Shown here one piece after another: positions 20,739 to 44,714 of a stretch of 44,729 nucleotides of DNA (position 1 is its first letter; every line of letters starts with the position of its first letter). The stretch covers positions 1-44,729 of the IMG/VR virus record IMGVR_UViG_3300034082_002813, one strand, 5' to 3'. The position numbers and the translations under genes are program-made. Under the pieces are notes generated by a model that worked only from the letters and a program-made list of their open reading frames with translations, did not search any database and was not told the DNA's origin. The stretch comes from a virus.

Positions 20739-21615
20739 TAATAGGAATATCAGCTGCACAGGTACACCAATCTCTAGTACACACGATCGGTTCAGCGGGC
20801 ACCGTAAAACTACCTGTGTAGATATTTCCTAAACTGCCGCCAACCCTGCAGGTAGCACGATGTACTTCTCCATCCCAATTTATCATAAGGCTTTCTAGTC
20901 CGGCATTACAAGACCAACCTTTAAATTGATTTAGATGCTGTTTGATCACATCATTGGCATGCATAATTTGAGAATCGTCTATCCTACAATTAGGCTTCAC
21001 AGTAGCATCGTGACTTAAAATCCATTGTAGATCTTTTCCATCATATTTTAGATCATCAAACACATTGTGGTCACCTTCGGTCCAGCGAATTCTACGAATA
21101 GCATATTTGATTCCAACCTCATCAAACTTTTTAACTACGAGTTTCACATTGTGCATATATTTGTGATGAGCCATTATGTTAACAAAAAACTCTCGTTCAG
21201 TACTGTCGTAGAATTTTAAAATCGTATCAAATATACGTGTCCAATCTTGTTCAAAATGCAGACTAAACACAAGATGATTGAAGAATATTTCATTTTCAAG
21301 ATACCACCGATATCCCCTGGTCCCGTTTGTAGTCAAGTTAACCCAGAATATATCTTTGCGTTTGAAGTATTCTAATAAATCTTCTATATCAGGATGTACG
21401 CAAGGTTCGCCTCCAGTTAGGCTAATGCGTAACGGTTTTCCTAGTTCACACAATTTATCAACAGTTGATTCTAGAATATTAATATCTGTATGCGGACTAA
21501 AATTATCGTGTATTTCCGAGGGACAATATGTACAATCATAGTTACAGCGTTTACCAAGGTTCCATTCTACTTTGATTTGATCCTGATGCGGCCATACGCT
21601 GGTTATTTTATTCAT
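20722..21615 (-). CDS. radical SAM protein with C-terminal cysteines
   Basis: EWNLGKRCNYDCTYCPSEIHD carries the cluster cysteines. ISLTGGEPCVHPD is the GGEP motif. FKGWSCNAGLESLMINWDGEVHRATC, then CTRDWCTC, match the auxiliary-cluster region of the 203 and 19746 proteins. It is the last gene of a minus-strand operon that runs from the QueC-like gene through a twitch rSAM and two hydroxylase-like genes. It overlaps the upstream hydroxylase gene by 8 nt. Confidence 0.9.
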   Translation of the reverse strand: MNKITSVWPHQDQIKVEWNLGKRCNYDCTYCPSEIHDNFSPHTDINILESTVDKLCELGKPLRISLTGGEPCVHPDIEDLLEYFKRKDIFWVNLTTNGTRGYRWYLENEIFFNHLVFSLHFEQDWTRIFDTILKFYDSTEREFFVNIMAHHKYMHNVKLVVKKFDEVGIKYAIRRIRWTEGDHNVFDDLKYDGKDLQWILSHDATVKPNCRIDDSQIMHANDVIKQHLNQFKGWSCNAGLESLMINWDGEVHRATCRVGGSLGNIYTGSFTVPAEPIVCTRDWCTCAADIPITKIAT

Positions 21616-22240
21616 CTATAGAACTTTTTAATACATCAATGAACAGTGATACTCTTGTAAAATCTGTTCTGTTCCATCCTTGATGATCGTAAGCACCATC
21701 AAATGCTAATGCTTCGTCGGTCTTCCAAGTTTTAAAACCGTGTCCGGGAAATTCTAATCCTATTTCATCATTGTCAAAAGGCGGGATCCAAAGACCTATC
21801 ATTATTTGATATGTAGGGGCAACAACACCATTGGCCATAACGCCACCGACATAGTCTTGCCCAGAGCCGTTGTAGGTCTTACTGTCGCTGTGTAAGGGAG
21901 TTATTGATTGGGGTCCGATATAGTTTATAACTGCTTGCGTAACAGTTTCTATTTTTTCAAATTCGTTTTTGAGTAAGATATATCTTTGATCTATTTTATC
22001 AGCAATAAACTGAAAGTCGGGCAACCGTTGATATACTGTTATGGCATTCCATTTGATGGGATTTTCTGGTCGGTCTTTTCTTAGATAAAAACCTTTATAT
22101 TGATCGTTGATTTTTTCTATGTTTATAGGATAGCCGTCATCGCCGACCACAATCTTTTTAGCCATCGAGACCAATGGCCACAGTTTATCGTAGTCTTTGT
22201 ATTTTGTTGGATCTTTCCAAACAGATGTCATAGGCTCCAT
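21608..22240 (-). CDS. aspartyl/asparaginyl hydroxylase-like 2OG-Fe(II) protein
   Basis: The C-terminal half matches the Asp/Asn beta-hydroxylase pattern: SITPLHSDSKTY (H-x-D), IMIGLWIPP, GLEFPGHGFKTWKTDEALAFDGAYDHQGWNRTDFTRVSLFIDV, which contains the distal histidine and the arginine. Its 210 residues suggest a single catalytic domain. It is adjacent to and overlaps a sister gene at 22228 by 13 nt, so the pair may hydroxylate related substrates. An alternative ATG at 22231 follows a GGAG. Confidence 0.82.
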   Translation of the reverse strand: MEPMTSVWKDPTKYKDYDKLWPLVSMAKKIVVGDDGYPINIEKINDQYKGFYLRKDRPENPIKWNAITVYQRLPDFQFIADKIDQRYILLKNEFEKIETVTQAVINYIGPQSITPLHSDSKTYNGSGQDYVGGVMANGVVAPTYQIMIGLWIPPFDNDEIGLEFPGHGFKTWKTDEALAFDGAYDHQGWNRTDFTRVSLFIDVLKSSIDE

Positions 22241-22797
22241 TCTTCTTGTTTAATATCCATATTTATAGTATAGCGCCATTGGTCAGTAAAATTCCACGAG
22301 CCGTGTGTAATGCCTCCATCAAATGCAACAATATCATTTGTACTAAATTTTATTTTTTCATTACCTAACTGAAACCCGCATTTGTCTACGGGAACATCTG
22401 GAATGTTGACTCCGATTAATATAACATATACCTTGTTTGATTTAGATAGATCAGTGCGCATGTCATAGTCATAGTCACTGTGAAAGGGAGCTTCGCCTCC
22501 TGGTGCGATGGCATTTACGCTGAAATTAACTATTCCCGGCAAGGACTTTGCCTTTTGTGTCAGCTGTGGTAGTAAACTACTCCACTCAGTTTCTTGACTC
22601 GCACGTAGATTAGGAACTGCATACCAATTCCACACCTTTGGACCCATTGGATGACCATATTGTTTTTCAAACCATTTGTAGTCAGCCATATCATACGGAG
22701 TCTTGTTAGCTAGAAATACTGTTAATTCTTGTTGCGCTAGAATTAATATTTCGTCAATTAATGGCCAATGTTGATATTTTTTATAATCAAGGAACAT
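22228..22797 (-). CDS. aspartyl/asparaginyl hydroxylase-like 2OG-Fe(II) protein
   Basis: APFHSDYDYDMR provides H-x-D. VILIGVNIPDVP, CGFQLGNEKIKFSTNDIVAFDGGITHGSWNFTDQWRYTINMDI completes the Asp/Asn hydroxylase pattern with the second histidine and an arginine. I chose the ATG at 22797, which has GGAG ten bases upstream and overlaps the twitch rSAM gene by 11 nt. A TTG at 22827 would extend it by ten residues. It is a sister of the 21608 gene. Confidence 0.82.
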   Translation of the reverse strand: MFLDYKKYQHWPLIDEILILAQQELTVFLANKTPYDMADYKWFEKQYGHPMGPKVWNWYAVPNLRASQETEWSSLLPQLTQKAKSLPGIVNFSVNAIAPGGEAPFHSDYDYDMRTDLSKSNKVYVILIGVNIPDVPVDKCGFQLGNEKIKFSTNDIVAFDGGITHGSWNFTDQWRYTINMDIKQEEWSL

Positions 22798-24100
22798 ATC
22801 TTTTAAACTCCGGTGTGTTAGATACAAAACTTTGTTGTCTGGTAGAATCTAATTTTTTATTAAAATCTATGCACTCTTCCCATAACTCGCTTTGATCGTT
22901 GGCTTCTAAAAAATTAATTACACCAGTGATCTGTCCAAGAGTAATATCTAATAAAATAGGATTTTCTTTAACGTATTTAAAATCTGGTACACGTTGCATT
23001 ACATTCTGTAATCTTTCTATAGCTAATATTTTTAGATATTTAGGTAACACCTGCGGTGACAACACTTTAGGGTAATTTACCATATTGGTATAAAAAACAA
23101 TCCCTAAATCGTCTAAAAAATATTCTATCATTTTATCTAAAATTAAAATATTGCTGACCTGCACAGCAACAGCCCCTACGATTCGACTTACATTGGGAAT
23201 TGTTTGTATCTGTTTTATATTGTTGATTAGTTCCGCCCATGATGCATTTCCTCGAATATATTCATAACTACTTCCTATACCATCTATGCTTACATTGACA
23301 GCAACACTTTTAAATTTAGGCCAATACTGCCACACAGTTCTATCGCTCTTGCCTAGCATAGTCAAGTTAGTAGCATACTTGATTTCGATGTTGTCTCCGT
23401 ACGGAGCAAGCATATCTAAAATTTTATAATGTGTAGGATCCATCAATGGTTCACCGCCGGCAAATTCTACACGTCTAAAGTAAGGCAATAGTTTTTCAAA
23501 ACTTTCCCACCAATTAGGGGTATCTACAAAACTGTCTAAGAACGGCTTGTTCTTGAGATTTAAGTCTATGATCTTTTTTACTAAAAAATTATCTTCTTTT
23601 TCGTAATGTGATTCTACTTCTTGCCAATCATTCCAGCTGGTCGAATCCATGGGATTACACATACGACATTTTAAATTGCATAGATTGTTTAATTTAATTT
23701 CCATTGTAGGAAAGTTAAAAGGCATGGTCATTTCTGGATGTAACTCGGCCAACGCTTTGGGGTAGAGGTTGATTCGAGCTTCGGGTATAACACCGTTAAC
23801 GTGTCGTTGACGCAGACTTTCAACTCCCTGATCTTCTAATGCAAAACAGGGCGCACACTCGGGTGGCCGCTTTCCGGACAATACCTGACTGCGAATTCTT
23901 CGCATGGTATCATTGTTCCAAATTTGTTCAAGCGTGTTTTTTTGAATAAAGCCGATAGGATGGCTTCGACAGCAGACTTTAACAGCGCCGTCTTCGCGTG
24001 TTGCTAATCCTGTAAAAGGATGCATACAAAATGTTTTACTATTGATCAATGGCCCACTCTCTTTCTTTGCACCAAAAACATTCTCCGCAAACCGGAACAT
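22787..24100 (-). CDS. twitch-type radical SAM protein (copy 2)
   Basis: FCMHPFTGLATREDGAVKVCCRSHP and CAPC are the N-terminal twitch cysteines. NNLCNLKCRMCNPMDS is the SAM cluster and FAGGEPLMDP the GGEP motif. NVSIDGIGSSYEYIRG and the tail NTPEFKRYVP align with the 18451 and 28626 copies. The start is uncertain. The ATG at 24100 overlaps the conserved cysteine end of the previous gene by 62 nt, whereas a TTG at 24049 would begin seven residues before the first twitch cysteine, as in copy 1. It may act on the same substrate as the two hydroxylase-like genes it overlaps. Confidence 0.88.
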   Translation of the reverse strand: MFRFAENVFGAKKESGPLINSKTFCMHPFTGLATREDGAVKVCCRSHPIGFIQKNTLEQIWNNDTMRRIRSQVLSGKRPPECAPCFALEDQGVESLRQRHVNGVIPEARINLYPKALAELHPEMTMPFNFPTMEIKLNNLCNLKCRMCNPMDSTSWNDWQEVESHYEKEDNFLVKKIIDLNLKNKPFLDSFVDTPNWWESFEKLLPYFRRVEFAGGEPLMDPTHYKILDMLAPYGDNIEIKYATNLTMLGKSDRTVWQYWPKFKSVAVNVSIDGIGSSYEYIRGNASWAELINNIKQIQTIPNVSRIVGAVAVQVSNILILDKMIEYFLDDLGIVFYTNMVNYPKVLSPQVLPKYLKILAIERLQNVMQRVPDFKYVKENPILLDITLGQITGVINFLEANDQSELWEECIDFNKKLDSTRQQSFVSNTPEFKRYVP

Positions 24101-24764
24101 ATTGTCCTTTGGTATAATTTGTAAAATCTATTTCTTCAAACGTGCCTTCACAGCTTCTAGTGAGTTCTAAAAGGTCTGTAATTTCCAGTCTTTTATATTG
24201 TGAGATAACCCAACTTTTATCTACAAATCTAAAAGGATGAATGGCCCATCGATCCATATGTTTCATGATCTTAAGATGTTGATTACTATCATTGGCATCG
24301 ACGTTTCTTTCTTCCATACCTCCGAGATCAACTGATATTGGGTTTCTAGTGACTGCATTGTAGTATGCATTGATATTATGTTTGTGACAAACGAATTCTG
24401 CATATGCACGTTGTTGTATGTTATCACCGCTGACCTTTTTACCGTATTCGTCTGTTAGAATAGGCCCAACATCACCGTATTCTAATTCAGGTGCTATAAA
24501 GTTTGTATGCCGAACAAACTTGGTGTGATAAAATCTTTGGAACAGCCAATTATATACATCATTGGCGTTATCTTGTTGCCAAGGCTTTGTCTTCCAACAA
24601 CGTACATGATTAATAATGTGCATGGTAACGTTGTGATCTTTGGCTAGGTCGCAAATTAGATAGGCCAACAGCGCACTGTCAGCACCTCCACTTACGCTGA
24701 TGGCTATATTTTCCCATGAGTGATCAAAGGGTACAAGACAGTTATCTATATTATAATGGTTCAT
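24039..24764 (-). CDS. QueC-like PP-loop ATP pyrophosphatase
   Basis: ISVSGGADSALLAY (SGGADS at 25-30) is the PP-loop of N-type ATP pyrophosphatases. The C-terminus has TRSCEG then VPVCGECFWCKERE, the cysteine pattern that binds zinc in QueC (7-cyano-7-deazaguanine synthase). No QueD, QueE or QueF gene is visible in this window, so it may amidate or thiolate another carboxylate. I chose the ATG at 24764, which forms an ATGA junction with the gene before it; an ATG at 24785 is in frame. Confidence 0.8.
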   Translation of the reverse strand: MNHYNIDNCLVPFDHSWENIAISVSGGADSALLAYLICDLAKDHNVTMHIINHVRCWKTKPWQQDNANDVYNWLFQRFYHTKFVRHTNFIAPELEYGDVGPILTDEYGKKVSGDNIQQRAYAEFVCHKHNINAYYNAVTRNPISVDLGGMEERNVDANDSNQHLKIMKHMDRWAIHPFRFVDKSWVISQYKRLEITDLLELTRSCEGTFEEIDFTNYTKGQYVPVCGECFWCKEREWAIDQ

Positions 24765-25969
24765 AGCCAGTCTCTGCAGTGCCATGTGGGCTTGGTGAGA
24801 TTGTTGATATCTGTTACAGCAATATTGTGATATAAATCACCATCTACGAATCCAGTAGATGCCCGCAATGAAAAATTAATAGTTGCAGATGAAAAGTAAT
24901 TTTTAATAGTCGTGATCATTGCATTTTCTTTGAACAATCTCTGCTCCAGACTGTATAAAATACTGGTAGCTTCGTAGGCATAGATGTTTGACAAATTTAT
25001 CAAGGTAGGTAATTCTTTATCAAAGTGATCGAACTCATATATATCTGTGAGTAGATCTATTTTCAAAAACACATAAGTGACATTAGAGATGTTCGGTTTA
25101 TGAATTTCCCAGTAGTCTAAGGCCTTTTGATTATAGTCGTAGATCACTACAGTAACAGGCTTTGATTTATCAATCATGGATTGCCACCACGATCCGCTGG
25201 CCGGTACAAAAAATTGTTCAAACACTTGATCTTGAAAGTTAACATTTTCGGTATGATCAGTATGCACAAACTCTGTTAAACAATAATTGAATCTTTGATA
25301 TGCCCATTGTATATGATTTATAAATTCTTGTTGGTTTTCTGGGTAATAATGTTTTTTATGTTGACGTATATTATTGTCAAATACTACCACAGGAATATCA
25401 CAATCGAATGCTACACTTAATATATTATGTCCATGCATCTTGTGGTTGTAGTCTGTTTCATCTTCACCACCAGATATCCGCATTGGGGTATAATCATCGT
25501 GTATATTATCATTGCTGCGCCAGGGTTTTGTTTTGCGGTGTTTAACCCCTAGCTGTTGTTTTCCTATCCGAGGGCTTCCTAGTTGTTGATATATGTCTAG
25601 GTTGATGTAGTAGCATTGATGGTGCAGTTCATAATATGCATCTGCTCGATCTAATATGTGGCCTGCAATAAACACTTTTTCTTTATGTAGTTTTTCTATC
25701 TCATTATAGAAACTATCACCGTTGATAAATTCTGTACCTGTAGAGAATATCACAGCAGCTTGATATTGTTGATCACAGGCCATCTGTAACAATATATCCT
25801 CGTCTTGTCCTTGTAATATATCGTATCCTTTTGAAAATGTATTCGAGATAGTGAAGTCGGATATATTTTTAATCAGTTCTTTTGACCATTCACTGGTATA
25901 GATATGTGTATTATCAACTATACAAAATACTATAGGTTTCTTAAAATTCTGAAATTTAATTACGTTCAT
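24761..25969 (-). CDS. protein of unknown function with possible C-terminal Rossmann fold
   Basis: A 402-residue protein. The N-terminal half has FCIVDNTHIY, AAVIFSTGTEF and FIAGHILDRADAYYELHHQCYYINL, a pattern I have seen only in uncharacterised phage proteins. The C-terminal half has VTVVIYDYNQKALDYW and LINLSNIYAYEATSI, which look like motif II and a post-motif strand of methyltransferase-type Rossmann domains, though no glycine motif is clear. The ATG at 25969 is chosen over a TTG at 25993. It is coupled to the QueC-like gene by ATGA, so the two probably form a functional pair. Confidence 0.75.
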   Translation of the reverse strand: MNVIKFQNFKKPIVFCIVDNTHIYTSEWSKELIKNISDFTISNTFSKGYDILQGQDEDILLQMACDQQYQAAVIFSTGTEFINGDSFYNEIEKLHKEKVFIAGHILDRADAYYELHHQCYYINLDIYQQLGSPRIGKQQLGVKHRKTKPWRSNDNIHDDYTPMRISGGEDETDYNHKMHGHNILSVAFDCDIPVVVFDNNIRQHKKHYYPENQQEFINHIQWAYQRFNYCLTEFVHTDHTENVNFQDQVFEQFFVPASGSWWQSMIDKSKPVTVVIYDYNQKALDYWEIHKPNISNVTYVFLKIDLLTDIYEFDHFDKELPTLINLSNIYAYEATSILYSLEQRLFKENAMITTIKNYFSSATINFSLRASTGFVDGDLYHNIAVTDINNLTKPTWHCRDWL

Positions 25970-26615
25970 TTTGTTTATTATAACTTCGAACAACTAATTC
26001 TGCAAATTCTTTTTTCTTGTCACCTATAACACAATGAGCAATCATATGCATTCTAGGTTGATCACTGTGATTTATGACTGAATGTGTATTTGTGATATTA
26101 ACAATGAATGCTTTCCCTTTAGAGAAAGGCACAGTACCGTATCCCTCTAACTGCATATTGCAATCTTTGGGATGTGTTATCGCTACGTTGATCGGAATCA
26201 TGTGATCCATCATGTCGAATTCTGTGTTCTTTACTCCCCCTGGGGAATCGTTGTGAGCCGCTATATGACCACCTGCTGCTAACTCCATGAATCGCAATCT
26301 GGCAAATCTTTCAGTGGGAAACGCTTTCCAAAACTCAGTGATACAAGGAGTGAGATGTGACACCTTGGTCCATCGATAAATTAAATCTGATTCAACATTG
26401 TCATACCGAGACCAATGACCAGTTTTATCCCAATCTATACCGTGAAGACAACAGCTACGCCAACCTTCGTGACCGTCACCTTCTCGGTGTTCTACCAAAA
26501 ATGGTTCAGCTTGTGCTGCTTCTTGCTGCCATACATCCAGATCGAACTCGATGTCGAGCTCTATCCAACCGATGGGTTTTCTAAGTATTTCTGTTGCTTG
26601 ATCTATAATGTCCAT
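25956..26615 (-). CDS. aspartyl/asparaginyl hydroxylase-like 2OG-Fe(II) protein
   Basis: RFMELAAGGHIAAHNDSPGG gives H-x-D, INVAITHPKDCNMQLEGYGTVPF and GKAFIVNITNTHSVINHSDQPRMHMIAHCVIG give the second histidine and arginine of the Asp/Asn hydroxylase pattern. Its 219 residues fit. It is the first gene of the operon that continues with the 402-aa protein, QueC-like protein, twitch rSAM, two further hydroxylases and an rSAM. A TATAAATA late box lies only 4 nt before the ATG, so the transcript should be leaderless. Confidence 0.83.
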   Translation of the reverse strand: MDIIDQATEILRKPIGWIELDIEFDLDVWQQEAAQAEPFLVEHREGDGHEGWRSCCLHGIDWDKTGHWSRYDNVESDLIYRWTKVSHLTPCITEFWKAFPTERFARLRFMELAAGGHIAAHNDSPGGVKNTEFDMMDHMIPINVAITHPKDCNMQLEGYGTVPFSKGKAFIVNITNTHSVINHSDQPRMHMIAHCVIGDKKKEFAELVVRSYNKQNERN

Positions 26616-26619
26616 GAAA

Positions 26620-26627
26620 TATTTATA
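26620..26627 (-). promoter_or_regulatory. T4-type late promoter (TATAAATA), leaderless spacing
   Basis: A perfect TATAAATA box on the minus strand, 4 nt from the ATG at 26615. Divergent with the plus-strand box at 26643. Confidence 0.72.
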
Positions 26628-26642
26628 TGCATGGTTTATAGG

Positions 26643-26649
26643 GTAAATA
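26643..26649 (+). promoter_or_regulatory. T4-type late promoter (GTAAATA), leaderless spacing
   Basis: A GTAAATA box is followed by TTTCC and the ATG at 26655. This spacing also argues that 26655 is the true start rather than upstream in-frame codons. Confidence 0.55.
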
Positions 26650-26654
26650 TTTCC

Positions 26655-27320
26655 ATGCTATCCAAAACAAGTTATACCGTTGATACATCGTTATTTCGAG
26701 AGGCTTGTCTTCAATTGCCTAACGAAGGAATGAAAACAACCATTAATCAACCCACGGGCAATTTCTTTTACGATCCATGGATTTTAAAAGATGAGTATAA
26801 AGGCACAGTTTGGGAAACTTTATATAATTCACTGCCTATTGACAAAGGCGAAGCAAGGATTATTATTTTGGATTCAGCTCATTGTTATCAAACTCATGCA
26901 GACATCGACGATCGATATCATCTTAATATATTAGGTGAAGCATGCTATCTTATAGATTTAGTTAAAGAGCAGATGCACGGGTTAGAACAAGACGGTGTTT
27001 GGTATGACATGGATGCAGGACTACTGCATACTGCTACTAATTTTGGTAGACGTGCTAGAGTACAATTGGTAGTTAGACATTTACTAAAAAAGAATGAACT
27101 ATTAGATCCGGTAGAGATAGTGCTATCTTCAACGGTATCTAACACCGATGATACTAGGTTTATATTTGACAACACATTGAGCCCGTGGCTTAACCAAGCA
27201 AATAAGTTGGGCTATATAAACAATTTTTCATATTCTCCAATCACAGTAAAATTTAATATAGAAAAAAATAAATTAGATCTGTTTAAAAGTATTTTGCCAG
27301 CGGAGTTTTCACTATTATGA
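26655..27320 (+). CDS. 2OG-Fe(II) dioxygenase-fold protein
   Basis: The reading frame is open upstream to 26415, but that part lies antisense to the 25956 gene. The ATG at 26655 sits 5 nt after a late box and begins MLSKTSYTVD. SAHCYQTHADIDDRYHLNI provides H-x-D and AGLLHTATNFGRRARVQLVVR provides the second histidine and arginine, so a 2OG-Fe(II)-type site is likely. The last 80 residues are a separate tail of unknown function. It is coupled to the next gene by ATGA. Confidence 0.75.
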   Translation: MLSKTSYTVDTSLFREACLQLPNEGMKTTINQPTGNFFYDPWILKDEYKGTVWETLYNSLPIDKGEARIIILDSAHCYQTHADIDDRYHLNILGEACYLIDLVKEQMHGLEQDGVWYDMDAGLLHTATNFGRRARVQLVVRHLLKKNELLDPVEIVLSSTVSNTDDTRFIFDNTLSPWLNQANKLGYINNFSYSPITVKFNIEKNKLDLFKSILPAEFSLL

Positions 27321-27862
27321 AACTTCATGTATCTACACTTACTGAACAGCTGTGTGAAAGTTTAATTACAGAGATCAGCACTCACACAGTTGAACCTAGT
27401 CATGGCCACATGGAACTACCTAAAGATAATCCATACTACAACGAATACCTTAATCAAACTGAAATGTTAAAATCTGTAGGTTACGATGAGCATACTGTAG
27501 AGTATCGCCACTATCAATCCGGAGTACACTTTCACAAAAACTATGAACTTGTCATAAGTATGGCAGTTAACGCTAAACCGTTGATGTGTTGGGTCAGTGA
27601 AATACGGCCAGGCAAATGCACACCTTGGCATTGGGATATTAATCCTTGGGAAAAAGAACACGAACAACTAGGCACACTTGTAAGATATTTTTGTTTCTTA
27701 AGTAAACCATCGGCAGGACATGTATTTGTCACAGCCGACGATGCATACTATATGGAACAACAAGGTAGCATATATCAATACGCTGATTTACATTCCTGGC
27801 ATGCAGGTTCTAATGTAGGATTGGCTCCTAAGTTTTTATTGACCTTTACTGGCTACAAGTAA
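27317..27862 (+). CDS. distant member of the MKYxGN dioxygenase-like family
   Basis: CTPWHWDINP (H-x-D), AGHVFVTADDAYY, SIYQYADLHSWHAGSNVGLAPKFLLTFTGY follows the same order as the tandem array at 12020-15987 (GHIF-x-YE, Y-x-AGD, HGAxNIG-x-xPR). It differs in three ways: it starts MKLHVSTL, AGD is replaced by ADL, and the 2OG-binding arginine is replaced by a lysine (PKFLLTF). That substitution may alter the co-substrate or make the protein non-catalytic. It converges on the 27836 gene with a 27-nt overlap. Confidence 0.72.
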   Translation: MKLHVSTLTEQLCESLITEISTHTVEPSHGHMELPKDNPYYNEYLNQTEMLKSVGYDEHTVEYRHYQSGVHFHKNYELVISMAVNAKPLMCWVSEIRPGKCTPWHWDINPWEKEHEQLGTLVRYFCFLSKPSAGHVFVTADDAYYMEQQGSIYQYADLHSWHAGSNVGLAPKFLLTFTGYK

Positions 27863-28633
27863 TTTAAATTTTTCTGTAAATTTACCATCAATACGTAACC
27901 CGTAGCTCTGTTCCATAGTAGCATTACCGCCGTGCCAATCTTGATCATTCCACCACGCAGCACGACTATTGATGTAGGTATGATTCCTAGTTTCTGGATC
28001 CCACAAATAAAAAGGTTTCTTTGTATTCGGACGTATGTGTATGAACTCGTTTACATTATCAGTGTATCCTTGTTGCAATCCTTTTTCGCCATCTAGGTCT
28101 CTATGCTCAAAAGGAACGCCTCCCGCTTCACAATGAAAGAATATCACTCGTCCGATATTTTCAAATATCCCTGCGGTGATTAAGTTTTCTACCCACGCAA
28201 CTGTTTCTGGAAAGTGTGCGGCTTCGGGGGTGAGTTTTCTAGTAGCACTTCGATCATCCCAACTACCCTGTTCCCATAAGAAGTAATAAATGTAAGGATC
28301 GTATGCTCCCATGGCCATTTTAATGTATCGGGTAAATCTATTGCGTACTGTAAAATCTTGAAAGTCTCTGTATAGATCAATGCCGCCTTGTTTGATAGGA
28401 TTATCATCGGGCAAGGCTAAAAATTCTTCTATTGCTTTATAGATAGGTTTCCAATTTGGAATATAGCTCATGTCTTCTATTTTAAAAGCAGGCTTCATCC
28501 ATGTGCCCTCTTTGGCAAATTCTCGAGCATCTGCAAAACCTCGAAGTATTTCGGGTTGTAAGTGATCAAACGTATCCATGTCAAGGTATGGAGTCATATC
28601 AATGTATGGCTGATTGTTAATACCTTTAATCAT
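27836..28633 (-). CDS. 2OG-Fe(II) dioxygenase-fold protein
   Basis: A 265-residue protein: VIFFHCEAGGVPFEHRDLDGE gives H-x-D, FIHIRPNTKKPFYLWDPE is a beta-helix strand pair, and AAWWNDQDWHGGNATMEQSYGLRIDGKF gives the second histidine and the arginine. The N-terminal 100 residues are an extra helical segment. It is coupled to the twitch rSAM gene upstream by an 8-nt overlap, which repeats the rSAM-plus-hydroxylase arrangement at 22-24 kb. Confidence 0.77.
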   Translation of the reverse strand: MIKGINNQPYIDMTPYLDMDTFDHLQPEILRGFADAREFAKEGTWMKPAFKIEDMSYIPNWKPIYKAIEEFLALPDDNPIKQGGIDLYRDFQDFTVRNRFTRYIKMAMGAYDPYIYYFLWEQGSWDDRSATRKLTPEAAHFPETVAWVENLITAGIFENIGRVIFFHCEAGGVPFEHRDLDGEKGLQQGYTDNVNEFIHIRPNTKKPFYLWDPETRNHTYINSRAAWWNDQDWHGGNATMEQSYGLRIDGKFTEKFKLLVASKGQ

Positions 28634-29861
28634 ATAATTCCTTAAATTCTGGGAAGGTCGTTAACAACGATTCGTTTCTAATTTTATCTCTCTCTTCTAT
28701 GGTTGTTAAAAATTCAGTAATCTCATTCGAATTATCGTTGGCCCACATCATTCTTAAAAATCCATCCACTTCAGTATTTGATTTGTATCTCTCCCAATGC
28801 TGCTTGACCCGTTCTTTGTAACTATTAGGTAGAGCACATAAACTCATACAAGACGGATGTTTAAGAAATACAAATCTATGTTCAAGATTGTTGTTGTTGC
28901 ACCAATCGTGCAACTTGCTGGCAGCAAAACAGTTTAGTATTTGTATAGTCGTATATATACTCAAAGCTACGTGAGGACATTCTTTCCTTACCTGATCAAT
29001 ATTTTCAAGTATTTCTAACCAATTTGATGGATGTCTTATATAATAATTTTGTTCACTGACAGCATCTAAACTTACTTGTACAGTGACTGAATTAAATTCT
29101 TTCCAAAGATCTAAAATATTATAATGTTTAAATTTTAGACGGGTCATATTAGTATTATACTGTAACCTAATATCAGTTTTATTTTTTTCTATCAGTAATT
29201 CTAATATTCGAAAATGTTGTTCCATCATCATAGGCTCACCGCCTTCGAATTTAATTTCTTCTATAAATTCAACATGTTGATCGAAGAATTTATAGAAAAG
29301 ATCGATGTCTCGGAATGATTCAATTAGTATTTCATTGGGATCACCTTTAAGATTGTGTTTGTCTAAGAATGCCTGCTGCATCGGGGAAATAGATTTAGTA
29401 CCGATTCCATTAGCTACTTCTTCCTCTCGTGTACGCGAGCTGAGGTAACTAGGGCACATTCTACATTTTAGATTGCATAGATTACTGTAGCCAACTCCGT
29501 CCCATAGGTAAAATTTATTTTCTTTTAAATCACCTATATCATTGAATTCTAGTTTATCAAATGTGTGTGACCATTTTTGATTAGAAGATTGTCGCAAGCT
29601 AGTAACATTAGATCGTTCGCAATCACTACACCTCGAACAGCTGTCGGGTAATGTTGGGCCATTTAATAGTTGTTTACGAAAACTTGTTAATTTTGTATTG
29701 TTATTTGAATAAATTTCATCTAGAGATTGCTGGGTACTAACACCAAATATTTCGTCATGATTGATACAGCACGGCACCACTAGGCTATGCCAAACACGAG
29801 AACTGATAAAAGGTAAGATGCAGAAGTGTTTAGACTCTAACAATTCGTTTTTATTAATCAT
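28626..29861 (-). CDS. twitch-type radical SAM protein (copy 3)
   Basis: HFCILPFISSRVWHSLVVPCC and CSRCSDCE are the N-terminal twitch cysteines. YSNLCNLKCRMCPSYLS is the SAM cluster. KFEGGEPMMMEQHF is the GGEP motif. VSLDAVSEQNYYIRHPSNW and the tail TTFPEFKELY align with copies 1 and 2. It overlaps the kinase-like gene before it by 8 nt and the dioxygenase-like gene after it by 8 nt. Confidence 0.9.
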   Translation of the reverse strand: MINKNELLESKHFCILPFISSRVWHSLVVPCCINHDEIFGVSTQQSLDEIYSNNNTKLTSFRKQLLNGPTLPDSCSRCSDCERSNVTSLRQSSNQKWSHTFDKLEFNDIGDLKENKFYLWDGVGYSNLCNLKCRMCPSYLSSRTREEEVANGIGTKSISPMQQAFLDKHNLKGDPNEILIESFRDIDLFYKFFDQHVEFIEEIKFEGGEPMMMEQHFRILELLIEKNKTDIRLQYNTNMTRLKFKHYNILDLWKEFNSVTVQVSLDAVSEQNYYIRHPSNWLEILENIDQVRKECPHVALSIYTTIQILNCFAASKLHDWCNNNNLEHRFVFLKHPSCMSLCALPNSYKERVKQHWERYKSNTEVDGFLRMMWANDNSNEITEFLTTIEERDKIRNESLLTTFPEFKELYD

Positions 29862-34162: not shown

Positions 34163-34780
34163 ATGGGTACTTTTTATATCAGCCGTCCTTCGTTAGCATA
34201 CGTGCATGTTCCTCGCACAGGCATGGCCATGAAGAAAATTATTTCAGACTGGCTTAAACCTAATTTCGATGTTAGTGATGCCGACTCTTGGATGATCGAT
34301 CATCCCCATCTAGGTATAGTGAAAGAATACTATCCGTATGCTAAAACTATGAGTGTTGTTCGTAATCCTTGGCAGCGCATATATAGTTTGTACCGCAAAG
34401 TAAGCACAGAAGGATATTGGTTAGATTGGAACAATCAAACTGTATTAGATTTGAAGCCTATCAACGAATGGGTTGCAGACTATTGCAATCCAGAGGTAGA
34501 ATTTAATTTTCCTCGATGGTTCACTCGATTTACTAATCAAGTAGATTTTATTCACGTAAACGATGAGAATGTTAACTTTGTTTGTAAAGCTGAGAACTTA
34601 GCAGAGGACTTTGTGATAGTCAAGGAATATCTATCTTGTGATATTCCTTTGCCTGATATCAGTGGCTACGACCATTGGGAATTTTTAAATTATTTTAATA
34701 ATGAAAGTATACAATTAATTTCTAAAATGCACGAAAGAGACATAGATACTTTCAAATATTCTTTAAGAGTTAGAACTTAA
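34163..34780 (+). CDS. sulfotransferase-like protein
   Basis: AYVHVPRTGMAMKKII (12-27) corresponds to the 5'-phosphosulfate binding loop, and MSVVRNPWQRIYSLYRK (63-79) to the 3'-phosphate site of PAPS-dependent sulfotransferases (Sulfotransfer_2-type). The usual catalytic histidine is not obvious. Its 205 residues make it a minimal version. These enzymes sulfate glycans, proteins or small molecules. It follows tRNA-Leu on the same strand and converges on the tail-fibre-like gene with an 18-nt overlap. Confidence 0.85.
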   Translation: MGTFYISRPSLAYVHVPRTGMAMKKIISDWLKPNFDVSDADSWMIDHPHLGIVKEYYPYAKTMSVVRNPWQRIYSLYRKVSTEGYWLDWNNQTVLDLKPINEWVADYCNPEVEFNFPRWFTRFTNQVDFIHVNDENVNFVCKAENLAEDFVIVKEYLSCDIPLPDISGYDHWEFLNYFNNESIQLISKMHERDIDTFKYSLRVRT

Positions 34781-36151
34781 AAACACTGTGTACTTTAAAA
34801 CAATCGCTTCACTTAAACTGCCACTAGTTAGATTTCTCACATGAAGCGTGGCGTTACCTGCTGACGTTACAATGCCGCCTACTCCATATGCACCTAGTGT
34901 TCCACCGCTGACATGTGTGACCAACAAATGAGCCTCAGCTCCTATTTTACTATTAACAAAAGGAAACGTCACGGTTGTGTTTGCCGCTAGAAGCGCAGCA
35001 TTCATAGTAATTTCTCCACAGATTTTATTCAATGTGACTGACGTTGATTTATCGGTGCCTTGAGTAATAGTTCCTCCAAACCCTGGTCGATACCCAATAC
35101 CGCTGGCTGACAACAATCCACCTTTGAATATAAAAACCAAATCGTCAGTGGCTGCATCAGATCTGCAACCTATGGCTATAGTAGCGTCGACTACAGCGTC
35201 TCCTGGGGTGATCGATGCATCTTCAACTGTGACAGCAATAAATGCAGCAGGTGCATGACCACTAGGAGAAGCGCCGGTGCCGGTCCATGCATTGAAACCA
35301 ATAAGACCTATTGAATCTCCGGTCTGTACAATTGTAGGAGCAGACAATGTACCTCTTCCCGATGCTAATGTAAGAGAGGTTTGATTGGCGTTCGCTCCGG
35401 TAGTAACGCCTTTTAAAAATAAACCTGTTTGTGCAGTATCTAAATTTAATATTATTGATGTTGGATCTGTGGTGGTACCTATAAGTAGATCATTGACGTT
35501 GCCTTGTATGGTATGGCTGTTGGCTCCACCGAGACTATCTGTAATAATTAAATTATTAACGAAAACCCGTCGATCGACTGCGTCAATTAATAATGAGGAA
35601 TCATCGCCAAAAATCGAACCTTTTACATCACCAGTATGAAATCCATTGGAATTTCCTGTTAGTGTTCCAATTAATGTTGAACCGGCTGTGCCGGTAATGA
35701 CTCCATTGACATTACCTGTAACGTTACCTACAACGTTACCAGTTAAATTGCCTGTAACATTACCTGTAACATTGGATACCACAGGTCCTACAATGGTACC
35801 TGAAATGCCGTCTACCAACAAAGTAGAATCGTCAGCTACAATAGATCCCTTGAAAGAAGTTGCACCAATAGTGCCTTGATAATTAGCTAAATCGACCACA
35901 GCTGATATACTGGCTGCTACGTCATTGTATGTAAAGGCAATTCCAGTGTGTGCGCCATTGCTGAAAAGCAGGGCTGCGGCATCTTGTGCATCTTCATTAG
36001 TATATCCGGTAATCTGGACACCACCCAGTGTAGTTCCGTTTCCGATGTATAATCTTTGATCATCGGTTACATACAGCAGTTCTCCCTGAGCCAAGGGCTG
36101 GGTCATTGCTGTTCTTTGTGTGTTGGTGCCTCTGCGAATCTGTAAGGGCAT
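34763..36151 (-). CDS. tail-fibre-like structural protein with NVTG repeats
   Basis: Starting at the ATG at 36151 the protein begins MPLQIRRGTNTQRTAM followed by GELLYVTDDQRLYIGNGTTLGG, a start typical of phage fibre and tropism-determinant proteins. A run of NVTG/NLTG/NVVG repeats (about 125-160) predicts a trimeric beta fibre. A block SLTLASGRGTLSAPT with GLIGFNAWT matches the protein at 8807. The C-terminus is beta-rich. In-frame codons up to 36217 are not used: an ATAAATA late box at 36184-36190 and CAGGAG support 36151. Confidence 0.88.
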   Translation of the reverse strand: MPLQIRRGTNTQRTAMTQPLAQGELLYVTDDQRLYIGNGTTLGGVQITGYTNEDAQDAAALLFSNGAHTGIAFTYNDVAASISAVVDLANYQGTIGATSFKGSIVADDSTLLVDGISGTIVGPVVSNVTGNVTGNLTGNVVGNVTGNVNGVITGTAGSTLIGTLTGNSNGFHTGDVKGSIFGDDSSLLIDAVDRRVFVNNLIITDSLGGANSHTIQGNVNDLLIGTTTDPTSIILNLDTAQTGLFLKGVTTGANANQTSLTLASGRGTLSAPTIVQTGDSIGLIGFNAWTGTGASPSGHAPAAFIAVTVEDASITPGDAVVDATIAIGCRSDAATDDLVFIFKGGLLSASGIGYRPGFGGTITQGTDKSTSVTLNKICGEITMNAALLAANTTVTFPFVNSKIGAEAHLLVTHVSGGTLGAYGVGGIVTSAGNATLHVRNLTSGSLSEAIVLKYTVFLSSNS

Positions 36152-36183
36152 ATCTATAACTCCTGGAATTGTTCTACCACATA

Positions 36184-36190
36184 TATTTAT
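36184..36190 (-). promoter_or_regulatory. T4-type late promoter (ATAAATA) for the tail-fibre-like gene
   Basis: A minus-strand ATAAATA box with a leader of about 27 nt containing CAGGAG before the ATG at 36151. Confidence 0.65.
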
Positions 36191-36213
36191 GCCGCTGATA
36201 TCAGAACACAGAG

Positions 36214-36244
36214 TCAAAAAAATAGCACCCGAAGGTGCTATTTT
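36214..36244 (-). terminator. rho-independent terminator with C(TTCG)G loop
   Basis: On the minus strand an 11-bp stem (AAAATAGCACC/GGTGCTATTTT) with a TTCG loop is followed by T7. It ends the 36294-38604 operon before the tail-fibre gene. On the plus strand the T run is shorter, but the stem could also act there. Confidence 0.85.
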
Positions 36245-37937: not shown

Positions 37938-38156
37938 TTACAATCTATATGTCACACGACCTTTGGTAAGATCGTATGGGCTGACTTCAATTTTAACACG
38001 ATCGCCTAAGATAATTTTTATCTTGTGCTGTTTTAATTTACCGCTGGTATAGCAGGTAAGAATGTTGGGCAGATTATCTACCTTGACCCTGAACATGTTG
38101 CCAGGCAATACTTCTTCAACTGCACCAGTTAATTCTATAAGATCACTTTTTGGCAT
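37938..38156 (-). CDS. infA: translation initiation factor IF-1
   Basis: A 72-residue protein, exactly the normal IF-1 length, aligning end to end with bacterial IF-1: [23 protein letters not shown], then [35 protein letters not shown]. The OB-fold landmarks MFRV, SGK, GD-V and PYDLxKGR are all present. IF-1 binds the ribosomal A site and helps IF-2 and IF-3 select the initiator tRNA. It overlaps the SprT-like gene by 14 nt and is expressed from the sigma70 promoter at 38628. A phage copy together with an initiator-type tRNA (42105) suggests control of host translation initiation. Confidence 0.95.
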
Positions 38157-40079: not shown

Positions 40080-41735
40080 CTAATGTGTAGCAAAAAGAAG
40101 TTTGTCTTCAACTTGTGGAGCACTATAATCGTACGATAACAGTGTTCCCTCAAAAAACAATTCATGAAGATATTCTAAATTGTTTTTTACATATGGTTTA
40201 AAGTCATAGGCTTTACCGTCCTGTATAAGTTGTACGTTATTTGTTTTTAGAAAATGTTCATAACTTTCATCAATTACACTTTGAAATTTATGAAAATTCT
40301 TAAAAAAGATATCCTCTTTACCTATAATGTTTTTCCAATGAAATTTTTGAGTTATCGCTTTGTGTAGATAATAAGTAACGGTTCCGGTAAACCATTCCTT
40401 TTTGTCCATGGTGCTGTTGGAAACCACAGTGACAATCTCGTCGCCTTTGACAATAATTTTTTGTATTTCTAATTTGAAACGTTGTTTGTATTCATCTACT
40501 GCCGCAGGAGTAAGAGGTAAAATCTCAAACAAGAATGTATGAGCTCTGGCTCTTATGCTGCCACTTTCGATCATGTTACGTTTCATATTCTCAAAATTTT
40601 GTCCAGGTAAACCCCAGATAAAAAATATTTGTACTTCTGTGTCATGCACGTTCCATTTTTCATAGTATTTGCGTATTGCTTTTGCTAATAATGGTTTGTG
40701 TTCAGCCCAGGGCATCTCTGGACGCTCGATGTATTCTAGTACCTTGGTATCTAGATCTTGAAGGTCTACTTTAAATTCAGTAATTAATCCAGCTTCCATA
40801 AATTTTTCCATCAATTGATACACCTGATCTTTTTTACTCTTTGACCATTGTGGTTGTATAAGTCTCGGACAGTTTGGATTGCTTCTAAAGAGATTACACC
40901 AGTATTCGACAATTTCAGGATCCTGCGGAGTTAACCCAATGTTAGGATTAGTCCAAAATATCACTTCAAGTTCTTCTATGTCAGTGAACAAAGCTAATTC
41001 TTTTTTCCAATTAGCTTCCAATTCACCCTTACCCCATATCCTCACCTTATGATGCAGGCCAGAACTCCAATCACAAAAGGTACAGGTATAAGGACATCCT
41101 TTGGTAGTTTCCCAAACCATAAGAACGAGCCTAGATCCGTTGAGTTCTTTTTTCAAATTTTTACATAACAGTCTAATCTCATCTTGATATTCTAAATATG
41201 GACTCTTCTTTAGAACATTCTTGTCCATAAAAACCTGGTGAGGATGTATTGTGCCTCGTTTGTCTACTACATTAATAATATCGACATCGTAGCCGGCAAT
41301 ATGGTCTAACAGAAATGAAAATGCAATTTCACCTTCGCCGTACATTGCCCAATCGAGATATGGATGTTCTGGGAAAAAATTCTTATTAATATGAGCATCA
41401 ATGTCCGGTCCTCCCACTATAGTGATTATGTGCGGGTGTATTTTTTTTATTTTTTCAGCTAAGGTCATTAGCCTCTTGCGATTCCATACGTATACGCTGA
41501 AACAGAAAACATCAATTTTTTCTTTTTCTATGAGATCTAGTGCGTTCTGTAAATCGTTAGAATCATCTTCTAGCAGGCACCAAGGAGTTAACCACTTGTA
41601 ATCATTTTTAGATTGAGAATCTGTCTCGTGATTTAACCTAAGCATCCAAGATACCGGACTTATCATATAGGTTTCTATCATTTCATTGCCAACAGGTCTG
41701 AAACAAGGACAAATTAAGAATTTGATATTTCGCAT
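40080..41735 (-). CDS. B12-binding-domain-type radical SAM protein (second copy)
   Basis: A 551-residue paralogue of the 2931 gene. The N-terminal Rossmann-like domain has VFCFSVYVWNRKRL and TIVGGPDIDAH, the same motifs as VIGFSTYVWN and VFGGPS there. YGEGE follows, then TTKGCPYTCTFCDWSSG, the radical SAM site. FFIWGLPGQ is a barrel strand. Upstream in-frame codons to 41846 run through tRNA-Pro and are not used. The ATG at 41735 sits 5 nt from a perfect TATAAATA box, so the mRNA is predicted leaderless. Confidence 0.88.
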   Translation of the reverse strand: MRNIKFLICPCFRPVGNEMIETYMISPVSWMLRLNHETDSQSKNDYKWLTPWCLLEDDSNDLQNALDLIEKEKIDVFCFSVYVWNRKRLMTLAEKIKKIHPHIITIVGGPDIDAHINKNFFPEHPYLDWAMYGEGEIAFSFLLDHIAGYDVDIINVVDKRGTIHPHQVFMDKNVLKKSPYLEYQDEIRLLCKNLKKELNGSRLVLMVWETTKGCPYTCTFCDWSSGLHHKVRIWGKGELEANWKKELALFTDIEELEVIFWTNPNIGLTPQDPEIVEYWCNLFRSNPNCPRLIQPQWSKSKKDQVYQLMEKFMEAGLITEFKVDLQDLDTKVLEYIERPEMPWAEHKPLLAKAIRKYYEKWNVHDTEVQIFFIWGLPGQNFENMKRNMIESGSIRARAHTFLFEILPLTPAAVDEYKQRFKLEIQKIIVKGDEIVTVVSNSTMDKKEWFTGTVTYYLHKAITQKFHWKNIIGKEDIFFKNFHKFQSVIDESYEHFLKTNNVQLIQDGKAYDFKPYVKNNLEYLHELFFEGTLLSYDYSAPQVEDKLLFATH

Positions 41736-41773: not shown

Positions 41774-41850
41774 TGGTCGGAGTACAAGGATTCGAACCTT
41801 GGACCCCCTGGTCCCAAACCAGGTGCGCTACCAGACTGCGCCACACTCCG
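41774..41850 (-). tRNA. tRNA-Pro (anticodon TGG)
   Basis: Acceptor CGGAGTG pairs with TACTCCG with one G-U. The anticodon arm CCTGG-TTTGGGA-CCAGG gives TGG. The T arm is CAAGG-TTCGAAT-CCTTG, and CCA is encoded. Confidence 0.95.
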
Positions 41851-41853
41851 AAT

Positions 41854-42081
41854 TTATTCTACTCTTCTAAGATACTCTCTACCTATCTTGCCTTCTTGTA
41901 CATCTAACAAGGCACTCACAGGAGCATTCATTTGAGTAGTATGACCTGCTGCCTTGTGTCTACGACTGAGTTCTCTAGCTCTTACTGTAGCGATTAACAC
42001 AAGATCAAATCTGTTGCCTCCTACTTGTTCTACACATTTTTGTGTATCTATGTTAGGACCACGGCTGTCAGTTAGTTTCAT
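41854..42081 (-). CDS. rpoZ: RNA polymerase omega subunit
   Basis: A 75-residue protein whose CVEQVGGNRFDLVLIATVRARELSRR matches the core of bacterial omega (NRFDLVLVAARRAR in E. coli), followed by an HTTQMNAPVSALLDVQEGKI stretch like the region around VIALREIEEGLI. Its length (75 versus about 90) is slightly short at the C-terminus. Omega clamps the beta-prime subunit and stabilises host RNA polymerase. A phage copy might replace host omega and alter promoter preference. AAAGG precedes the ATG. It sits between tRNA-Pro and the initiator-type tRNA. Confidence 0.9.
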   Translation of the reverse strand: MKLTDSRGPNIDTQKCVEQVGGNRFDLVLIATVRARELSRRHKAAGHTTQMNAPVSALLDVQEGKIGREYLRRVE

Positions 42082-42101
42082 TTTTTGCCTTTGTAAAAAA
42101 C

Positions 42102-42175
42102 TGGTTGCGGGACCTGGAATCGAACCAGGGACTGGAGCTTATGAGACTCCTGAGATGCCGCTTCTCCATCCCGCG
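42102..42175 (-). tRNA. initiator-type tRNA-Met (anticodon CAT)
   Basis: The gene starts CGCGGGATGGAG and ends CCCGCAACCA, as in E. coli tRNA-fMet. The first acceptor pair is a C1-A72 mismatch, the hallmark that allows formylation. The anticodon loop CTCATAA is identical to the fMet loop. The anticodon stem is GGAGT/GCTCC and lacks the three consecutive G-C pairs of bacterial initiators. CCA is encoded. Elongator Met or Ile2 (lysidine) is less likely given C1-A72. Confidence 0.88.
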
Positions 42176-42181
42176 ATAAAC

Positions 42182-42268
42182 TTAATAAAACACATTTTGC
42201 ACTTTTCACTACGGCGGTGTGCAGTCCTTACAACCTAAACTATGTTTAGGCAAAATGTGTTTTATTAA
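42182..42268 (-). ncRNA. stem-closed structured RNA element 1, 5' of initiator-type tRNA
   Basis: A perfect 19-bp inverted repeat (42182-42200 with 42250-42268) encloses 49 nt that contain a CTAAAC-ATA-GTTTAG hairpin and a TGCAC/GTGCA stem. The element ends 6 nt before the 5' end of the initiator-type tRNA on the minus strand. The strand is assumed from the flanking tRNA. It might be a stable small RNA like T4 RNA C and D, or a processing signal. Confidence 0.6.
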
Positions 42269-42405
42269 ACTAACCTTATAGGTGCTCTCTGCGGCGCTTG
42301 AATCCACGGTAGCCCTGCTCTTCATGGCCGGTCCTTGTACATGGTCGACATTGACAAGTATTTCGGTGTTCCACTGTAGCTACTACAGAAAGCATTTATA
42401 AAATA
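42269..42405. other. non-coding spacer with hairpins
   Basis: No convincing gene. CTGTAG-CTA-CTACAG (42374-42388) is a perfect hairpin, and a TATAAAT box on the minus strand (42394-42400) could be a late promoter reading toward the tRNAs. A short 38-codon frame on the minus strand (42209-42325) runs through element 1 and is not called. Confidence 0.5.
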
Positions 42406-42527
42406 ACTTTATTAAAATATACTTCCAACAAGTGTCTTATGCTTGTTGTACCGTGTGCTATGCACATTTCCTTTGCGAGGCTCCCCCGGGTTTGGGCAAT
42501 GTAGACGAAAGTATATTTTAATAAAGT
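42406..42527 (-). ncRNA. stem-closed structured RNA element 2
   Basis: A perfect 19-bp inverted repeat (42406-42424 with 42509-42527) encloses 84 nt with a 7-bp CAACAAG/CTTGTTG hairpin and a GTGC-ATA-GCAC hairpin. The whole 122-nt unit looks like a folded stable RNA. The strand is assumed from neighbours. I do not recognise the class. Confidence 0.6.
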
Positions 42528-42734
42528 GTCTAGCTACTCCCACCACAGGAGCCCTAGACTGAGCGGTTACTCTGTCCATAACATTTGTTCTTCTGGAAAA
42601 GGCGTTATACCAAACCCTAGGCAGTTTCCAGTATCCCTTAAATGGGGACTGTGAGGTCAGGTCCTAGTGTACCCCCTGGTCTATCGTTACAGGGACGCTA
42701 TTTCTTTAACGTAGAAATAGTAAGACGGGGTCTG
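42528..42734. other. non-coding stretch with hairpins
   Basis: No gene is visible. It contains an 8-bp perfect hairpin CTATTTCT/AGAAATAG (42700-42722) and a CAGTCCCC/GGGATACTG stem (about 42630-42654). It lies downstream of the 42735 gene and upstream of element 2 in the minus-strand direction, and may be part of a larger structured RNA. Confidence 0.5.
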
Positions 42735-43310
42735 TTATAGCAGGCCTTCTGCTTGCAGTGAAGCCACTACATCATCACTCAGAGGAATCTCTGTCTTGAT
42801 GTTCAACTCAAGCACTTCGTCGTTGAGCTGTTGTTTTTGCTTTTTCAGGTTAAGCACTTCTGCTTTGGCCTGTGCAATTTGTTCCTTGCCAAGAACACTG
42901 GTGCTTACTGTGTCGCTGTAGCCGTAGATGCTACGACGGCTGGTTTCGCCCTTGTCGTTCTTGATCTTTTCCAACTTGCCCTTGATCACTTCCAAAGAAG
43001 TGATTTCTGTGGCCTTGGCCAGTTCTTCTAGCTGACCGATGCGTTTGTCAATGAACGCTGCCTTGGCCAGGGCTGTGTTAATGCCACTGGCTGCGTTGGC
43101 TGTGCCAACCAATGCACGTATGTTGTACAGAGCCATGGTCAGCTTTTGTCTGCGACCATCGTTGGCAACCAATTCGGAGTTGGCCTTGGTGATGGCAGCT
43201 TCTACGTCTTGAAACTCATTGAGCTCCACGGTGAAATCTACTTTGATACCTTTGATGGTATCGTTGATGCTGTTCTGTACAGCATTTGCTTTTCTCAGTG
43301 TGATATTCAT
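42735..43310 (-). CDS. coiled-coil protein of unknown function
   Basis: A 191-residue protein, mostly helical: MNITLRKANAVQNSINDTIKG at the start, long charged heptad stretches (about 75-110 and 140-175) and a short ordered loop SRRSIYGYSDTVSTSVLG. It resembles uncharacterised proteins of large marine phages. AAAGGA precedes the ATG. It stands alone behind a consensus early promoter about 290 nt upstream, which suggests an early function. Confidence 0.75.
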   Translation of the reverse strand: MNITLRKANAVQNSINDTIKGIKVDFTVELNEFQDVEAAITKANSELVANDGRRQKLTMALYNIRALVGTANAASGINTALAKAAFIDKRIGQLEELAKATEITSLEVIKGKLEKIKNDKGETSRRSIYGYSDTVSTSVLGKEQIAQAKAEVLNLKKQKQQLNDEVLELNIKTEIPLSDDVVASLQAEGLL

Positions 43311-44642: not shown

Positions 44643-44714
44643 AAACGTTAGAAGGAGTTGAACCCTCAGCCGTCTCCTTAACAGGGAGATGCACTACCAT
44701 TGTGCTATAACTGA
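44643..44714 (-). tRNA. tRNA-Asn (anticodon GTT), odd acceptor stem
   Basis: The anticodon arm TCTCC-CTGTTAA-GGAGA gives GTT. The D arm GCAC/GTGC with AATGGTA and the T arm GAGGG-TTCAACT-CCTTC are good. Only about four of seven acceptor pairs form, and the 3' end is not followed by CCA, unlike every other tRNA here. It may need 3' trimming and CCA addition, or may be decaying. Confidence 0.65.

Follow-up and report, generated by a model that had tools for sequence, protein, structure and literature searches.

According to one review, the formylation determinants of initiator tRNA are an unpaired 1·72 position, G2-C71, C3-G70 and A11-U24 (PMC7949028). A second review holds that three G-C pairs in the anticodon stem are found in all initiator tRNAs (PMC4611024). 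In the cited passages, A1339 and G1338 of 16S rRNA reach pairs 30-40 and 29-41 through A-minor interactions, and pair 31-39 is not named there (PMC11497404, PMC4611024). A swap of the 30-40 pair carried a cost of about 20-fold in vivo (PMC11497404), and changes to the three pairs alter the fidelity of initiation in E. coli (PMC7949028, a review). Our literature search on exceptions to the G-C rule found no paper with the terms used.

Initiator tRNA is also cut by toxins. VapC of Shigella and Salmonella cleaves tRNA-fMet between A38 and C39, and other VapCs act on tRNA-fMet too, according to the cited text (PMC4105405). VapC1 of Bosea is described as destroying tRNA-fMet, with partial rescue by extra copies of metZWV. 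Phage tRNAs with changes in the anticodon loop have been proposed to evade anticodon nucleases in a 2023 eLife study, whose cited passages also describe tRNA-fMet genes as generally avoided by the phages of S. flexneri (PMC10264068). For phage Sf14, nuclease escape is excluded in the cited portion of its description on the ground that neither tRNA-Met of Sf14 is classed as tRNA-fMet (PMC12482277).

The window, that is, the whole stretch of DNA analysed here, is a 44.7-kb IMG/VR virus fragment (44,729 nucleotides). Rfam gives ten tRNA matches in it; the tenth, at 44647-44711 on the minus strand (54.8 bits, anticodon read as GTT), is not in the ARAGORN output. The features on which the following account draws are these:

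37938-38156, minus strand: translation initiation factor IF-1, 72 aa (phmmer to 12 PDB IF-1 sequences, best E 5.3e-20; phrog_30201)
41774-41850, minus strand: tRNA-Pro(TGG), just 3' of omega on the same strand (ARAGORN and Rfam)
41854-42081, minus strand: RNA polymerase omega (Rpb6/RpoZ-like), 75 aa (Pfam PF01192; phmmer against PDB omega chains, E 1.7e-5)
42082-42101, minus strand: spacer of 20 nt from the tRNA 3' end to the omega start codon (17-21 nt in 24 relatives)
42102-42175, minus strand: initiator-type tRNA, anticodon CAT, CCA encoded, 74 nt (ARAGORN, Rfam RF00005, identity elements, conservation in relatives)
42134-42150, minus strand: anticodon arm GGAGT-CTCATAA-GCTCC of this tRNA, with A29-U41, G30-C40 and U31·G39 (sequence)
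42138-42146, minus strand: U31 (42146) to G39 (42138), the closing pair in place of G31-C39, at the A38/39 bond
42272-42401, minus strand: second structured RNA, about 130 nt (alignment of 22 sequences; 15 of its 28 pairs show compensatory changes)
42517-42734, minus strand: structured non-coding RNA, about 218 nt, directly after the stop codon of the ORF at 42735-43310

ARAGORN placed a Met-CAT tRNA at exactly 42102-42175 on the minus strand, and Rfam RF00005 matched the same span (53.1 bits, E 1e-8). The gene reads CGCGGGA-TG-GAGA-AGCGGCA-TCTC-A-GGAGT-CTCATAA-GCTCC and so on to CCCGCAACCA. An earlier, sequence-only reading had pointed to a C1·A72 mismatch, CGCGGG...CCCGCAACCA ends and a CTCATAA loop, all of which are present, and its assignment to the initiator type was borne out by C1·A72, G2-C71, C3-G70, A11-U24 and the CTCATAA loop. 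The acceptor and D-stem features listed above as formylation determinants are therefore all in place. Like E. coli tRNA-fMet (metZWV), the window tRNA combines these features with G30-C40 and a CCA end; unlike it (G29-C41, G31-C39), it has A29-U41 and U31·G39, and the two are identical at 53 of 77 aligned positions. Identity to E. coli metT or metU is 45 of 80.

Elongator tRNA-Met and tRNA-Ile2 are marked by a G1-C72 pair together with Y11-R24; the window tRNA has C1·A72 and A11-U24 at these places. A reading of it as elongator Met or Ile2, its acceptor having degenerated, is hardly credible. Phage genes of such a type are annotated as plain tRNA-Met, which would favour it, but C1·A72, G2-C71, C3-G70 and A11-U24 are conserved among relatives, and metZ is nearer than metT, with Ile2 judged by identity elements only. 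Separate elongator-type CAT tRNAs with G1-C72 are present in several relatives. Judged by its identity elements, the window tRNA is a genuine phage initiator tRNA of the tRNA-fMet type with a variant stem. Three consecutive G-C pairs at 29-41, 30-40 and 31-39 are not found in it, and that rule itself has cellular exceptions (described below); we therefore call it initiator-type, a variant.

The anticodon stem is formed by G27-C43, G28-C42, A29-U41, G30-C40 and U31·G39, with G-C at 30-40 only among the pairs 29-41, 30-40 and 31-39. The sequence-only reading had held all three of these G-C pairs to be absent, which is correct for 29-41 (A-U) and 31-39 (U·G) but not for 30-40, where G-C is intact. 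Its description of the stem as relaxed does not hold in general, as the 30-40 pair read by A1339 is kept and only 31-39 is, specifically and heritably, U·G. A29-U41 is common in initiators of Pseudomonadota, and many of the matches listed read AGG-CTCATAA-CCT. The real departure of this stem is thus U31·G39, and A29-U41 is ordinary.

A search with the phage omega yielded 39 related viral loci. In 24 of them omega is preceded, at a distance of 17-21 nt, by an initiator tRNA, and all 24 have both C1·A72 and U31·G39. Of the other 15, four start too near the locus end for a tRNA to be visible (L015, L020, L025, L040) and 11 are without an adjacent tRNA; an initiator-type tRNA occurs anywhere in the locus in 31 of the 39. 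Among the 24, the outer stem pairs 27-43 and 28-42 vary with compensation (GG/CC, GA/TC, AG/CT, TC/GA, CG/CG). U31·G39 is fixed in this lineage and not a chance occurrence, as a tRNA of this kind, with an unchanged inner stem, adjoins omega in 24 of the 39 loci. A loose initiator filter retained 30 distinct tRNAs of relatives, in which G2-C71 and C3-G70 are invariant (30/30 each), position 1-72 is C·A in 26, A·A in three and A-T in one, A11-U24 is found in 20 (by linear index) and G30-C40 in 29, the remaining one having C30-G40. One tRNA passing this filter has a TTCATAC loop and is not an initiator. Of 80 IF-1 loci kept, 45 hold an initiator-type tRNA, which has U31·G39 in 43 and G31-C39 in two. 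Among 1434 distinct other viral tRNAs, U31·G39 was found in 98, mostly Leu; in viral tRNA-Leu it is frequent, with 39 of 59 distinct sequences for anticodon tag and 20 of 26 for caa. In INPHARED the window has no near DNA relatives except for a 40-base match to a tRNA-Leu.

The IF-1 gene reported earlier for this phage was confirmed at 37938-38156. As the ORF adjoining the tRNA, IF-1 was rejected, since the adjoining ORF is omega by Pfam and PDB omega chains; omega is thus the immediate gene partner, and IF-1 is encoded on that strand at a distance of 4 kb. The tRNA and the phage omega are probably transcribed together, to judge from their arrangement. A tblastn search with omega gave no match in 50,697 INPHARED phage records. 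IF3 domains were sought in 12 large viral contigs that are either relatives or carriers of U31·G39, and none turned up; two of the 12 encode a peptide deformylase. A literature search on phage-encoded initiators with IF1, judged by title and the start of the abstract, found no paper on the topic. Elsewhere in the window, many radical SAM, SPASM and B12-binding proteins are encoded at 203-4856, 17376-29861 and 40080-41723, with an aminotransferase gene at 4903-6099; so many enzymes of metabolism or modification are unusual in a phage. The protein at 34763-36217 (minus strand) has an Mtd N-terminal domain (major tropism determinant, PF18454).

Two structured RNAs with covariation and two hairpin elements that look like insertions lie in the 559 nt preceding the tRNA. 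The RNA at 42517-42734 has 23 distinct relatives, and its consensus fold contains 29 pairs, of which 17 show compensatory changes; it had no Rfam match in the window scan and none in INPHARED. The RNA at 42272-42401 has a terminal stem of the ACTTTATA/TATAAAGT type and a further stem of the GCTCTTTG/CAGAGAGC type, and several relatives have, before the 3' strand, a TTCGATT hairpin similar to the T arm of a tRNA. It likewise had no Rfam match, and none in INPHARED with a relative as query. Against Rfam at E up to 5, the upstream region gave a single chance-level miRNA match, far below the cut-off. Perfect AT-rich inverted repeats of 19 bp mark two elements, at 42182-42268 and 42406-42527, that are absent from the corresponding places in three related loci (L023, L027, L030), which suggests small hairpin insertions or modular RNAs.

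Among viral contigs, at least 120 stretches carry the U31·G39 pattern. Of the 119 such loci read among the matches listed, 93 hold at least five tRNAs and 45 hold omega or IF-1; most therefore lie outside the window's clade, within the stretch fetched. A pattern with the stem left free, pooled with two other scans, gave at least 225 distinct viral sequences among the matches listed; one of the three pooled scans fixed C41 and was biased against A29-U41. In these 225 listed sequences C39 is lost in two ways, as U31·G39 in eight and as C31-G39 in 30. In tRNA-rich loci, the 62 distinct sequences among the matches listed have G-C at 31-39 in 45, C-G in ten, G·U in four and U·G in three. With U31·G39 in three of these 62 when the stem was left free, we rejected it as a general phage trait; a count of 97 in 100 was inflated by sequences drawn with the U31·G39 pattern itself. 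U31·G39 is a trait of some phage lineages.

Twenty-five phage stretches were read for tRNAs with a GCGGG acceptor, a GAG D stem and a 1-72 position that is mismatched or a weak A-U; they are a convenience sample, partly drawn with the U31·G39 query, and several acceptor ends are incomplete in the ARAGORN output. Initiator-like tRNAs with U31·G39 were found in Lak-A2, Vibrio phi-ST2 and Vibrio phi-Grn1, Klebsiella phi1_175008, S-PM2 and S-CRM01, and also in Shigella Sf14, O157 typing phage 12, Citrobacter Moogle and Vibrio PG07 (different D arm). C31-G39 was found in DSS3P8 and phiWae14, and G31-C39 in LR756504, cr60_1, VBv52, QDWS359, Lak-B1, Kaldavass, pf16, Myrna and Phendrix. The tRNAs read in RHph_TM30, RiverRider and Moby fall outside the initiator type, and the output for the SNUABM_44 stretch held no tRNA of initiator-like type.

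The Sf14 tRNA-Met at 14399-14475 has a U1·C72 mismatch, G2-C71, C3-G70 and U31·G39, together with U73, U37 and an extra base before the D stem. Relatives of it matched in 611 phage records; in 256 of these a single place covers 80% of the query or more, and three were read. The 'tRNA-Met' of Felix O1/Moogle-type phages (Sf14, O157 typing phage 12, Moogle) is thus like the window tRNA in its 1·72 mismatch, G2-C71, C3-G70 and U31·G39, and differs in having U·C at 1·72, U73, U37 and the extra base; it was published as not being tRNA-fMet, as the cited text has it (PMC12482277). The Sf14 tRNA appears to have initiator features, but U73, U37 and the extra base weigh on its class, and the published statement may be worth re-examining.

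Cellular genomes were examined for the same pair. A sample of 299 genomes represents one phylum, taken as Pseudomonadota from its Methylococcaceae seed genome. A CGCGG...CTCATAA...GCAACCA match was found in 192 of the 299, a few by chance (e.g. G291:C28), and the U31·G39 form in one, the seed; any form in which 31 is not G and 39 is not C was likewise confined to the seed. The seed genome and viral contig L331 have identical tRNAs, so that the copy in the seed may belong to a phage contig in a bin. The phage omega finds relatives in all six Pseudomonadota genomes tried and in none of ten others (six of them Patescibacteria or grouped with them); Pseudomonadota is therefore the likely host phylum. 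The phage IF-1 is closest to that of a Pseudomonadota genome.

Across the whole genome collection, the U31·G39 form matched 24 stretches, 11 of which have C1·A72. Of these 11, three are Patescibacteria by label, shared synteny or sequence (L248, L249, L258), six are in loci with 7-30 tRNAs (L251, L257, L263, L266, L268, L270), one (L265) is identical to the tRNA of L331, and one (L259) is single, in a genome that also has a G31-C39 initiator. The other 13 start with T or G, or have no matching C1·A72 CAT tRNA by ARAGORN. In 59 Patescibacteria genomes (the phylum of G003, Portnoybacteria), an initiator-like match occurred in 48 and U31·G39 in three, seed included. In L597 and L599 this tRNA is near genes for a class II tRNA synthetase, MreB and an amidase; it is therefore chromosomal in some Patescibacteria, and the pair is therefore compatible with a cell's own initiator function. 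The idea of U31·G39 as a purely viral variant was accordingly rejected. In L248, L597, L598 and L599, from genomes of Patescibacteria type, the U31·G39 initiator-type tRNA is the sole match to the general pattern, an exception to the rule of three G-C pairs. Like the window tRNA, these native initiators combine U31·G39 with G30-C40; they differ in being cellular, in having G29-C41 in three of the four, and in having T1 for C1 in L597 and L598. A literature search on initiators of Patescibacteria found no paper with the terms used.

We tentatively propose, with less than even confidence, that the phage tRNA is a cut-resistant substitute initiator that sustains the start of phage translation when host tRNA-fMet is depleted. 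What the data show are the sequence features, the conservation and the gene linkage; expression, charging, formylation, use by the ribosome and, most of all, escape from nucleases are inferred. Host MetRS would charge it, the host transformylase would formylate it via the 1·72 mismatch, G2-C71, C3-G70 and A11-U24, IF2 would carry it to the 30S P site, and 16S A1339 would grip the conserved G30-C40. The lineage would have swapped 31-39, the one of the three pairs outside the cited P-site contacts, and the swap would remove C39, the base 3' of the bond cut by VapC-type toxins in host initiators. U31·G39 would keep a pair and alter the cut site, so that the substitute would survive such toxins. 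As in the phage tRNAs proposed to evade anticodon nucleases, the change would lie beside a cut site of a host tRNase; unlike the anticodon loops of the cases given there (PMC10264068), what has changed is the closing pair of an initiator's anticodon stem. G39 stands in place of C39 beside the A38/39 bond that the cited text names for enteric VapC (PMC4105405).

Several observations count for the substitute-initiator proposal: the formylation determinants kept in relatives, the separate elongator-type CAT tRNAs that several of these carry, the constancy of U31·G39 in 24 of 24 loci while 27-43 and 28-42 turn over with compensation, its presence in 43 of the 45 IF-1 loci with an initiator-type tRNA against 98 of 1434 other viral tRNAs, its confinement to the seed among 299 genomes of which 192 have the general pattern, the 16S contacts at 30-40 and 29-41, the VapC cuts in tRNA-fMet, the two routes by which C39 is lost in the viral sample, and the native U31·G39 of some Patescibacteria, which marks it as a pair compatible with a working initiator. 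The same Patescibacteria count against nuclease escape, since the pair can exist without phage conflict, as does the retention of G31-C39 by 45 of the 62 viral sequences from tRNA-rich loci among the matches listed. The avoidance of tRNA-fMet stated for S. flexneri phages in the cited text (PMC10264068) also counts against it, although the Sf14 tRNA-Met shows features of an initiator. Nearly as likely is a plain supply role, in which the initiator, one of at least ten phage tRNAs, raises late initiator supply and U31·G39, a wobble that does no harm, became fixed through common descent and has no special role. The ten tRNAs of the window, the position of 31-39 outside the contacts named for A1339 and G1338 in the cited passages (PMC11497404), the canonical initiators carried by many phages and the tolerance of the variant in Patescibacteria all agree with this. 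Two observations do not: U·G persists at 31·39 across relatives whose outer pairs turn over, and both bases have to change, a combination missing from the other 298 genomes sampled in the likely host phylum.

It is unlikely that the tRNA was taken from, or matched to, a bacterium with a U31·G39 initiator, such as a Patescibacterium. The Portnoybacteria initiator L248 does have an identical inner stem and agrees with the window tRNA at 61 of 74 positions (E. coli metZ agrees in 53 of 77 aligned columns), and 3 of 59 Patescibacteria genomes, seed included, have the pair, but the relatives of omega (six of six Pseudomonadota, none of ten others) and of IF-1 point to Pseudomonadota, and related contigs reach 281 and 353 kb, large against genomes of 0.5-0.8 Mb. 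The modified initiation pathway suggested in the sequence-only reading, in which a relaxed initiator and the phage IF-1 would change start-codon or mRNA selection, or the tRNA would also serve in elongation, is less probable again. The IF-1 gene 4 kb away on the same strand is consistent with it, as are the effects of changes to the three G-C pairs on fidelity in E. coli (PMC7949028, as cited). Set against these are the retention in 29 of 30 relatives of G30-C40, the pair whose swap is costly in vivo in the cited text (PMC11497404), and the lack of IF3 in the 12 large contigs.

A wider form of the substitute-initiator proposal is less likely than not: several unrelated phage groups may carry cut-proof initiators without C39 (U31·G39 or C31-G39) against VapC-like toxins, with the features used by ribosome and transformylase kept, and these may include Felix O1-type enterobacterial phages described as lacking tRNA-fMet. 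In this phage lineage, in other phages and in a minority of Patescibacteria, the lower G-C pair is absent and the middle one is kept, and this loss of the one and retention of the other sets a requirement of the ribosome apart from a feature that is just common. Should the nuclease reading be true, isotype classifiers would be hiding phage initiators under 'tRNA-Met', and translation initiation would be a battleground between phages and tRNA-cutting defences.
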